The notes beneath the pieces were generated by a model that searched no databases, was not told where the DNA came from, and saw only the letters and a list, made by a program, of their open reading frames with translations. Below, one piece after another: positions 20,587 to 24,215 of a stretch of DNA of 64,000 bases. How positions within the stretch are numbered: the first letter of the stretch is position 1; each line of letters begins with the position of its first letter. The DNA is from Shewanella oncorhynchi (lineage in GTDB: Bacteria > Pseudomonadota > Gammaproteobacteria > Enterobacterales > Shewanellaceae): positions 310,001 through 374,000 of the forward strand of contig NZ_JABAEB010000002.1 of the NCBI RefSeq assembly GCF_012584455.1, given 5' to 3'. The translations under genes were made by a program, and so were the position numbers.

Positions 20587-21036
20587 ATGAAAAAATTACT
20601 ACTTACTCTCGTTGCCAGTACCTTATTGGCTTCAACTGCTCAAGCACACAATTTCGAAGACTCTAAAGATGCAATTGAATACCGCCAATCTGCATTTGGT
20701 CTTATTGCTTATAACTTCGGCGATATGGCTGCCATGATGAAAGGTAAAAAACCTTTCGAAGCAGAAACCTTCGCAATGCGCGCAACGAATGTTGCTGCAT
20801 TATCCAAAATTCCTTTCGAAGGTTTTATTGATGGCTCAGACAAAGGTGATACCGAAGCCCTAGCCAAAGTTTGGCAAGACAGAGCTGATTTTGATGCAAA
20901 AATGAAAACCTTCCAAGAGAATGCTGCCATTCTGGCTACTGTAGCTCAAAAAGGTAATCAAGCTGAAATCAAACAAGCCTTTATGGACACAGGAAAAAGC
21001 TGTAAAAGTTGTCACGACATTTATAAGAAAGATTAA
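20587..21036 (+). CDS. Periplasmic monohaem cytochrome c' type
   Basis: 149 residues with a clear signal peptide (MKKLLLTLVASTLLASTAQA, cleavage before HNF). The haem site CKSCH is at 139-143 near the C-terminus, as in the four-helix cytochromes c'. Helices include IEYRQSAFGLIAYNFGDMAA and FDAKMKTFQENAAILATVA. The family carries one haem and may bind NO or carry electrons in the periplasm. The start at 20587 is chosen because it gives the signal peptide; the longer frame from 20467 has none. Convergent with the cytochrome b561 gene, which may be its membrane partner; that link is inferred from position. Confidence 0.88.
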   Translation: MKKLLLTLVASTLLASTAQAHNFEDSKDAIEYRQSAFGLIAYNFGDMAAMMKGKKPFEAETFAMRATNVAALSKIPFEGFIDGSDKGDTEALAKVWQDRADFDAKMKTFQENAAILATVAQKGNQAEIKQAFMDTGKSCKSCHDIYKKD

Positions 21037-21057
21037 TTTGACGTTGTTTTCCCCATC

Positions 21058-21084
21058 AAAAAGCCTGCTAAATAGCAGGCTTTT
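21058..21084. terminator. Bidirectional terminator between cytochrome genes
   Basis: GCCTGCTA (21063-21070) pairs with TAGCAGGC (21073-21080), flanked by A5 on the left and TTTT on the right, so it can work on both strands between the convergent genes. Confidence 0.8.
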
Positions 21085-21109
21085 AGATGTTCCAAAACTA
21101 AGTATAAAT

Positions 21110-22101: not shown

Positions 22102-22458
22102 ATGCTAAAGATTACTAGCAAGCAACTTGAAGTCACATCTCCTATTCGCGAACGCATTGAAAGCCGTTTTGAAAAACTTTCAAGGCATGATGTGCAAATG
22201 ATAAATCCCCATGTAATCATTACGGAGGAGAAACCTGGTTTCAAAATTGAAGCATCGGTTGGCATCCCAAATGGAGAACTCTTCGCTCAAGCAAAACATG
22301 AAAATTTATATACTGCGATTAACGCTATGGGCCAAAAATTAGAGAAGCAGCTCAATCGCATAACACACAAACCTGAAGCTCAACGCTCCACATCACTAAC
22401 ACCGACTAATAATGTTGTTGAAATTGACGACGAGTACGAGGAGGAAGATGCGGCATAA
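22102..22458 (+). CDS. raiA: Ribosome-associated translation inhibitor RaiA (YfiA)
   Basis: 118 residues, MLKITSKQLEVTSPIRERIE, close to E. coli RaiA (MTMNITSKQMEITPAIR) through NPHVIITEEKPGF and LYTAINAMGQKLEKQLNRI, ending in an acidic tail (DDEYEEEDAA) as RaiA does. RaiA binds the 30S A and P sites in stationary phase and blocks both translation and 100S dimer formation, opposing HPF. The acidic tail distinguishes it from the HPF paralogue at 2351. AAGG lies nine bases before the ATG. In E. coli raiA is likewise immediately upstream of pheL-pheA; here an unusually long interval separates them. Confidence 0.93.
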   Translation: MLKITSKQLEVTSPIRERIESRFEKLSRHDVQMINPHVIITEEKPGFKIEASVGIPNGELFAQAKHENLYTAINAMGQKLEKQLNRITHKPEAQRSTSLTPTNNVVEIDDEYEEEDAA

Positions 22459-22581
22459 TTTAAATCTGGTGAGTACGAGAAACGCATCACTTTGAGAGCA
22501 ATAAAGTAGAAATATTTAATCAGATCACAGTTTTTACAAAAGCTTAGTGCAATCATTTTAATGATGAAAAAAACAGTTCTT

Positions 22582-22610
22582 TTGACTAAATACCTACTAC
22601 ACTTTACAAA
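22582..22610 (+). promoter_or_regulatory. Candidate sigma-70 promoter for the raiA-pheL interval
   Basis: TTGACT (22582-22587), exactly 17 bases, then TACAAA (22605-22610): a good -35 and a 4/6 -10. It lies 124 bases after the raiA stop and points into the gene-free interval. Transcription would begin near 22617. Confidence 0.45.
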
Positions 22611-22616
22611 GTGACA

Positions 22617-23992
22617 GCAAGAATCGAAGTGGTGCGGATTTAAATCGTTTCAAATGTTGATTTACTTTAAATTTTGATTTACAAATATTGATTAACAGAT
22701 CTTAAGTTCTAAGTAACGTTACTGGATATAACTAAGGAGCACTACTAATCTAAGCTATATAGTTTTAAGTACTAAGGTTTACTGTTAATGATTAATTTTA
22801 CTTATAATTTCTACGTTTAAAAGTTCAATTTTTATTTTCAACTAGGTTCCACTTTCAATAGCAAGTTTGGAAAGGAGGCAACACAAGAGCGAACAATTTG
22901 ATTTTAGAAACAATCAAGTATGTTGGCATTCACTAAAAGCAGTACTCAATTTTGACCCAATATCAGGATGACCACCAGAAACAGGCGGCATTGCTGAATA
23001 CCAGAGTTAACATAAGGAGCCGAGTACAGTACAACGAGTACATTAGCAAAACCTTTAACTATCAAATTTTTTATATCCACAATGGAGGCCTAGGTAAACA
23101 TAAAAAAAAGTCACATTAACAAAAGCTACATGAATAAAAGCGTTTATTGTAAAACGGGTCAGCACCAATACGTGCTAAACACTGAGATAAATGAGGTAAC
23201 AACTGTCACGTTTAGTTAGATGTAGATTAGTTATATGAAGAGAGTCATATTTACACTGATATGTTAGTTAGCGTTTTTAGCGTGTGATTTAATATAAGTG
23301 CAATACGTTGATTTGATTAAAAGTAATTAGTTTACTTAGTGTTATTTGTATAGTAAAAACTGTAAAACGTATAAATGTTTATTTATGTAATGTGTTAACG
23401 TTTACCATTAGTTGAGTTTTGATATTTATAGACACCTTAAATAATGTTTAATTATCAACTAAAAAGGAGGAAATCTAGACTTGACGAAAATTGTAATAAC
23501 AGTAAATGAAAGTTTTTATACGCTCCATGTATTAACATGTTAGGTTTTAAAGTAAAAAGTAATAATGTAAGTAGCAAGACCTAAACGCGTGACAAGGCTA
23601 AGCTGTTCTTACAGCAAAATGTACCTAGTACAACCAATGAGCCGTAAATCGTTTATTTTTAAGTGTTCGTTTTGTTAGTGTTAGTTTTTAATGTTATAGC
23701 TCCATGCAAGTGTTAATTGTTAAAATATAAGTGCAAGACATGTCAACGTAAGTTCGCTGGTACTGCAAACTGCATAGTTTCAAGGTTATACGCTATGCCG
23801 CATAAAGTACTTGTTAATGTTCATTGTAAATGCAAGTCGTTATCGAGTGAGTTGTCAACGTTTTACTGTTACACGTAAATGTAAGATAAACGAATGTGTT
23901 ACCTTGTCCCACACTGACCATAAGGAGGATAAACTCGCTTGACCATATACATACTTGAACCAAACCAGCGCACCCTCGGGTGCGCTTTTTTT
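22617..23992 (+). ncRNA. Putative long noncoding transcript between raiA and pheL
   Basis: About 1.4 kb with no credible coding sequence. Sampled lines have 25-30% G+C in the middle (23281, 23521) and 47% near 22981. A promoter-like pair lies at its 5' side and a strong terminator at 23967-23992 closes it, so it is either an independent RNA or a very long raiA 3' UTR. Six Shine-Dalgarno-like words on the plus strand (AAGGAGC 22734, AAGGAGG 22872, AAGGAGC 23014, TGGAGG 23083, AAGGAGG 23464 and 23922) are not followed by real ORFs; none occurs on the other strand. Two share a further match, AAGGAGG-N10-TTGAC. Small hairpins are seen at 23161-23176, 23527-23540 and 23602-23615. Being an RNA gene is an inference. 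Confidence 0.4.
23967..23992 (+). terminator. Strong terminator upstream of pheL
   Basis: AGCGCACC (23967-23974) and GGTGCGCT (23979-23986) with a CTCG loop, then seven T. It separates the interval transcript from the pheL-pheA unit. Confidence 0.9.
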
Positions 23993-24016
23993 AGATTACC
24001 TTTAAGAAAGTTTTGA

Positions 24017-24045
24017 TTGACAGCTAAGCCCTAGCCCTTTAGTTT
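24017..24045 (+). promoter_or_regulatory. Candidate pheL-pheA promoter
   Basis: A perfect -35 TTGACA (24017-24022), 17 bases, then TAGTTT (24040-24045). The start would fall near 24052, almost on the pheL ATG, so either pheL is nearly leaderless or another promoter is used. Confidence 0.4.
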
Positions 24046-24052
24046 TAAGACT

Positions 24053-24106
24053 ATGAAAATGATAACAGCAGCTTTTTTTACTTTCTTTTTTACACCCCCA
24101 CTCTAG
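24053..24106 (+). CDS. pheL: Phenylalanine operon leader peptide
   Basis: A 17-residue ORF, MKMITAAFFTFFFTPPL, with five Phe codons among six (TTT TTT ACT TTC TTT TTT), followed by the phe attenuator. This is the counterpart of E. coli PheL. When charged Phe-tRNA is low the ribosome stalls on these codons. The GGAGGC overlapping and following the TAG stop is then free to pair with GCCTCC of the terminator stem. Confidence 0.93.
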   Translation: MKMITAAFFTFFFTPPL

Positions 24107-24144
24107 GAGGCGGATTTACTGTGTAAAAACGAAAGTAAAAATCC

Positions 24145-24172
24145 AAAGCCTCCCAACTGGGAGGCTTTTTTG
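24145..24172 (+). terminator. phe attenuator terminator hairpin
   Basis: AAAGCCTCCC (24145-24154)-AACT-GGGAGGCTTT (24159-24168), then a T-run. The alternative antiterminator is GGAGGC plus GGATTTACT (24106-24120) pairing with AGTAAAAATCC and GCCTCC (24134-24153). The hairpin ends about 45 bases before the pheA start. Confidence 0.93.
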
Positions 24173-24215
24173 TCTTAAACGATTGATAAAATACATGGCG
24201 GCAATTGAGGTCAGA

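Follow-up and report, generated by a model that had tools for sequence, protein, structure and literature searches.

The raiA gene of Shewanella is associated with a conserved RNA element that shows a reciprocal distribution, lying within the coding sequence (CDS) in many short-tail species and in a noncoding tail downstream of the stop codon in the long-tail clades, one of which includes the window (the whole 64-kb stretch of DNA analysed here). We propose that in the window and its relatives the raiA 3'UTR carries this element, and that its Shine-Dalgarno (SD) words may pair with the 16S anti-SD of free or idle 30S subunits, a proposal that we regard as evenly balanced between right and wrong. 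The element combines folded domains, AAGGAG(G) words without start codons and a constant AAGGAGG-N10-UUGA module about 20 nt before the raiA terminator. Mechanism aside, an RNA element is found in the CDS of some species and in the noncoding 3'UTR of others, where the coding copy is relaxed, and this contrast provides a natural experiment on the origin of 3'UTR RNAs such as RaiZ. No title or abstract found by searching open-licence PMC papers, a scope outside which most subscription journals fall, deals with an RNA in the Shewanella raiA tail, and the excerpts of an S. oneidensis transcriptome report that name yfiA and raiA among the regulated genes do not mention the tail (PMC5955497).

Layout and distribution of the raiA 3' region

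In the window, raiA (ribosome-associated inhibitor A, by homology) occupies positions 22102-22458 of the plus strand, and the phe leader (RF01859) follows at 24058-24174 with pheA downstream, the whole raiA-pheA interval measuring 1760 nt. The stretch of about 1.6 kb between raiA and the phe leader had been described from the sequence alone as gene-free and AT-rich, and it is: its longest ORF has 55 amino acids and its G+C is 0.235-0.31 in 200-nt windows around 23100-23600. The strong plus-strand terminator claimed at 23967-23992 is also present, as a GCGCACC..GGTGCGC stem (23967-23986) followed by a T-run. In the tail and the related loci scanned, matches to Rfam 15 families stayed below cut-off, the downstream phe leader being the sole exception. 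A sub-threshold match to STnc370 (37.2 bits, cut-off 54) was seen at 21019-21091.

We used 128 of 129 Shewanella genomes with raiA, leaving out one (G131) without a full raiA match. A RaiA protein search across the class also returned low-identity matches (25-41%, the window's own aside), which we took to be hibernation paralogues and set aside. A locus was called short if a terminator lies within 40 nt of the stop codon (66 loci) or pheA lies within 375 nt (13 loci), which gave 79 short and 49 long-tail loci. The interval is thus far longer than usual, as had been claimed, only by comparison with the 79 short loci; it shares its length class with the other long ones. Long tails measure 635-1560 nt in the census, with 391 nt in one further locus, and carry up to eight AGGAG words each; 47 of them have a detected terminator (for L216 that end is really the phe leader), and these contain no ORF above 92 amino acids. 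A GCGCACC hairpin is the terminator in 41 of the 47 tails and in 42 of the 79 short loci, rising to 45 and 63, respectively, with a relaxed pattern. Three loci (L097-L099) extend only to 1497 nt, their full versions being the window, L002 and L003, which were used for the accessibility, start-codon, motif-terminator spacing and terminator counts; two others (L144 and L194) stop at contig ends. In L092 and L093 the 3' region is of another kind, with a single AGGAG close to the stop codon.

The sequence-only reading had placed a promoter at 22582, implying a long noncoding RNA with a start of its own. We rejected this promoter, because its -35 word varies among 20 aligned related loci and its -10 word, TACAAA, belongs to a hairpin, CACTT-TACA-AAGTG (22600-22613, plus strand), in which it covers the loop and reaches into the 3' arm; this hairpin is kept in 18 of the 20 rows (not in L018 and L023). 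Nor was the promoter listed by a promoter scan, which accepts only -10 hexamers that end in T. A separate gene with a promoter of its own at this site is not supported. Since nothing shows an independent transcript, and since a terminator closes raiA directly (within 40 nt) in 66 of the 79 short loci, the plus-strand interval from stop codon to terminator (22459-23992) is best read as a very long raiA 3'UTR that would be co-transcribed with raiA and end at raiA's own terminator. In seven oneidensis-type loci (L019-L022 and L024-L026) pheA was not found within 4 kb downstream, yet the long tail still follows raiA, so the element goes with raiA and not with pheA. The raiA-pheA order is broken at these loci, and in the two for which ORFs were listed, L019 and L022, another gene, which by eye we take to be HolC-like, follows raiA and its tail. 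AAGTAGC tandem repeats occur downstream of the raiA terminator in L020 and L026.

On a midpoint-rooted PheA tree of 108 tips (79 short and 29 long, relatives without adjacent pheA being omitted), the long state requires at least three changes, against a mean of 25.8 when states are shuffled. The window's group makes up a single clade of five tips (support 1.0), and the other 24 long tips form a second clade (support 0.987) in which one short tip, L212, is nested; this locus has lost its tail and kept neither form of the element. Because the long tips fall into two clades with one nested loss, the contrast between long and short loci (47 vs 78) reflects few independent events. A further locus, L209, has a 635-nt tail without any AGGAG word and, together with the loss in L212, indicates that the element is dispensable there. 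Some tens of nucleotides before its terminator, L209 has a G-rich variant, GAGGGGGATAGAAACCGATTTGA.

Shine-Dalgarno words and folded domains in the tails

AGGAGG is rarer than chance in the window as a whole (seven occurrences vs 16.9 expected by shuffling), and the plus-strand segment 22439-24110 holds five of these seven, of which one is near the end of the raiA CDS (22439-22444, within the codons of the acidic C-terminus), three are in the interval and one is in the phe leader. The six SD-like words that had been reported in the interval are all present on the plus strand, and their conservation among ten representative relatives is uneven. The first, AGGAG at 22735-22739 (GGAG at 22736), has a GGAG within a few columns in 9/10; the second, AGGAGG at 22873-22878 (GGAG at 22874), in 4/10. 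The positions of the third (AGGAG, 23015-23019, GGAG at 23016) and the fourth (GGAGG preceded by T, 23084-23088) are not conserved, each having a counterpart in only 1/10. The fifth, an AGGAGG-N10-TTGA at 23465-23484 (GGAG at 23466), is found in 7/10, and the last, the distal module AAGGAGG-N10-TTGA at 23922-23942 (GGAG at 23924), in 10/10. The earlier statement that such words occur on the plus strand only is true of AGGAG and false for GGAG, which also has two minus-strand occurrences within the element.

In the 49 long tails together, the mRNA strand has 176 occurrences of AGGAG and the opposite strand a single one. Across 20 tails from the window's group no 6-mer is more enriched than AGGAGG (58 vs 2.2 expected, none on the opposite strand), and in eight representatives of this group it still occurs 23 times vs 0.9 expected. 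GGAG is enriched in the window's group (116 vs 34.6 expected) and mildly so in the 18 tails of the second group (59 vs 42.1 expected). At the 138 GGAG sites of 35 non-redundant tails out of the 47, start codons (ATG, GTG or TTG) 4-9 nt downstream are depleted, six being found vs 34 expected, while TTG at 11 nt after GGAG, mostly as part of TTGA, occurs 33 times vs 1.9 expected.

The tails also contain folded domains. In the window, a 5' structured domain (22475-22641, plus strand; model R2) is closed by a 13-bp helix, in which 22483-22495 pairs with 22624-22636, and has two further helices inside it. It was found in 19 of 126 genomes of the genus, once in each and always at raiA. In its alignment 96.1% of cells are paired, against 26-42% when the structure is slid, and compensatory changes affect 6/23 pairs, all of them in the closing helix; pair types, one of five covariation measures, did not rise above shuffles (452 of 500). 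A conserved segment at 23592-23650 on the plus strand has the form GGCT-AAGCTG..CAGC-..GTAC..GTAC-..AGCC, by inspection a possible three-way junction. Of the three 12-column stretches with the highest conservation, one falls within it.

Tails of the second clade are built of tandem units of about 185 nt, each with a closing helix and two inner helices, a second hairpin domain, and then AAAGGAG(G). A model of this unit (R1), built from ten units, recovers 23 units (E < 2e-6), spread over 14 of 16 loci searched; 21 of these units end in GGAG and two lack it. In the R1 alignment, which like that of the R1 CDS matches was fitted to the model and so favours R1, 92.7% of cells are paired, against 25-43% when slid, and 15/25 pairs show double changes. 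The SD word is unpaired in the R1 consensus structure; the accessibility of the SD words in the tails, as predicted by single-sequence folding, is not above controls (0.346 vs 0.360). Among 148 genomes of the order, from 65 genera, R1 matched only in two Shewanella. In the window's own tail R1 has no match even at E 5, so the link between the tails of both clades consists of the distal module and the SD words; the best R1 score in the window's group, about 16 bits (E 0.095), is one that we do not claim. The check proposed with the earlier reading, for structure and motifs conserved between species, is answered positively by these helices and SD words, and what is supported is a noncoding region, structured and conserved, that has its SD words on a single strand. 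In the 3'UTR of L047, about 390-820 nt past the raiA stop codon, an array of some 430 nt of GATGTTAGA / GACGCAAGATGTTA tandem repeats lies between two units.

The element inside the raiA coding sequence

R1 has 71 matches in the 126 genomes of the genus, all of them at raiA, with 27 in tails and 44 in the CDS. The latter, among them that of L051, cover the last ~176 nt of raiA, and all belong to short-tail genomes. P4 covaries in these 44 matches (7/7 pairs) and P1 and P3 hardly vary, so that covariation in the CDS comes from P4 and P5. We examined the CDS further in a codon alignment made without the model, by comparison with synonymous-codon shuffles and with identical rows merged (78 short, 47 long). 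The closing helix is complete in 43/78 short-tail CDSs (0.9 expected), P3 is present in 59/78 (7.8 expected) and P4 in 22/78 (8.1 expected), and AGGAG occurs near the end in 64/78 (12.3 expected). None of the three helices occurs in any of the 47 long-tail CDSs, and the mean folding z is -2.07 for the short-tail and 0.03 for the long-tail CDSs, at similar GC3 (0.393 and 0.374, respectively). AGGAG in the last 60 nt of long-tail CDSs is still above chance, with 26/47 vs 12.0 by synonymous shuffle. Near its end the window's raiA has an AGGAGG, and the RNA structure found there in many short-tail species is missing.

Of the 79 short loci, 64 have a CDS that closes with GGAG-N9-12-TTGA, the TGA serving as stop codon, and none of the 49 long ones does; this motif stands before the terminator in 35 of the 47 tails (40 by a looser pattern). 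The median distance from motif to terminator is 20.5 nt in short loci (n=54) and 20 nt in tails (n=37), and the distal module of the window is the counterpart of the raiA CDS end and TGA stop of short-tail species. The motif and the full closing helix are both absent from 13 of the 79 short loci, among them L212. In the short-tail locus L150 the stop codon has shifted upstream, leaving the GGAGGAAAAAGCAGCTTGA motif noncoding but intact, and this locus is possibly an intermediate of relocation.

These observations lead us to infer that the element may have left the ORF when the raiA 3' end was duplicated, and that the CDS would then have been freed from it. In both clades, one of them the window's, the CDS does not carry the element and raiA has the noncoding tail instead, which in the second clade holds tandem copies of the unit that short-tail species have at the CDS end. 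By sequence alone the duplication is weakly supported: the best nhmmer match between a tail unit and the raiA CDS has a marginal E of 0.045 (best shuffled value 7), and that for the window's group has an E of 3.3. In the window's clade the distal module is the only link to the CDS end that can be recognised.

Possible functions of the element

Anti-SD partners on the mRNA of a hibernation factor would, if our proposal is true, constitute a direct idle-ribosome sensor. The AAGGAGG of the tails is complementary to the 16S tail GGATCACCTCCTTA, which is present in 5/5 relatives searched (with one GGGTCACCTCCTTA among the matches) and which a search of the draft genome of the window itself did not recover. 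This complementarity, the bias to a single strand and the absence of start codons are all features that one would look for in a docking site for 30S subunits. SD cores on a single strand, a lack of starts behind them and a host gene that encodes a hibernation factor make 30S docking, in our view, the most likely explanation. Its most likely mechanism, which the earlier reading had offered as a guess, would be pairing with the anti-SD (CCUCCUUA) at the 16S rRNA 3' terminus. The raiA message, or a RaiZ-like fragment released from it, would thus receive free or idle 30S subunits; docking might protect the message and make RaiA output depend on how many ribosomes are idle, or else it might serve to park 30S. 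With distinctly more doubt, we suggest that the tandem SD decoys could form a multivalent 30S dock that reads out idle ribosomes, with bound 30S subunits stabilising the message or being stored there, from an element that began in the CDS and escaped from it twice.

A mimic of SD/anti-SD pairing has a precedent in OLE RNA, which is described as long, structured, containing such a mimic and bound by ribosomal protein bS21 (PMC12054373). OLE differs from the Shewanella element in also carrying an anti-SD and in occurring mostly in Bacillota, whereas the Shewanella tail has many SD copies within the tail of an mRNA and no Rfam match. The raiA RNA motif of Gram-positive bacteria, named for its raiA neighbourhood, is likewise distinct, as no Rfam 15 family but the phe leader was found at cut-off in the loci scanned.

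The main rival, which is not exclusive of 30S docking and which we hold to be possible but rather unlikely, is a trans-acting sRNA from the raiA 3' end, similar to RaiZ, in which AAGGAGG..UUGA would pair with mRNAs or C-rich sRNAs instead of 16S rRNA, the multiple copies making it a multi-target RNA or a sponge. RaiZ, as the sections of the report devoted to it describe, is a ProQ-bound RNase E product that overlaps the CDS end and the 3'UTR and acts in trans on hupA, the step concerned being 30S loading (PMC5391140). The Shewanella element lies at the raiA 3' end like RaiZ, which takes in the last third of the CDS plus the 3'UTR (PMC5391140), ProQ is encoded in the window's genome, and the layout of structured domain, linker and terminator is similar. 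In short-tail Shewanella structure and motif lie at the CDS end and the terminator about 20 nt further. The window departs from RaiZ in that its element is outside the CDS, in the 3'UTR only, and in that its tail is about ten times as long as the 160 nt of RaiZ. What speaks against a RaiZ-like sRNA is that little beyond the SD core, itself a complement of the 16S tail, is common to the internal copies, and that E. coli raiZ has neither the R1 structure nor AGGAGG: the best R1 score in the E. coli raiA region is 6.7 bits, outside raiZ, and no AGGAGG occurs in the stretch inspected at the end of E. coli raiA.

It is improbable, in our view, that the tails are relics without function, left when the raiA 3' end was duplicated in tandem, which would have inherited their strand bias and missing start codons from coding sequence. 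The units do resemble the raiA 3' coding end, L047 has simple tandem repeats as well, and L212 lost its tail. However, helices are kept by compensatory changes, the distal GGAG persists in 10/10 representatives of the window's group and its distance from the terminator is nearly constant, and short-tail CDSs favour this structure in their choice of synonymous codons.

CsrB, CsrC, RsmY and RsmZ are noncoding RNAs with many repeats of a short G-rich word, and the tails, long noncoding RNAs with repeated GGA words on one strand, could by analogy act as a sponge in which these words bind CsrA. We consider this slightly less probable still. CsrA needs only GGA, but the tail word is AAGGAG(G) and not GGA generally: in the window's group GGAG alone is enriched, and GGAA (33 vs 62.5), GGAT (25 vs 40.6) and GGAC (20 vs 31.0) fall below expectation, which points to the SD core. 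In addition, no CsrB match was found in the interval or the related loci scanned with Rfam, whereas the genome already has, outside the window, two separate, neighbouring CsrB-like genes (G000:C12:113463-114775; 58.8 and 55.6 bits, Rfam cut-off 71).

Least probable of all are small ORFs translated from behind the SD words, for which the excess of TTG at 11 nt past GGAG might be cited, or a separate promoter-driven gene, since normally spaced starts are depleted, the TTGA occupies the place of the short-tail raiA stop codon, the 47 tails are free of ORFs above 92 amino acids, and the promoter words are not conserved.
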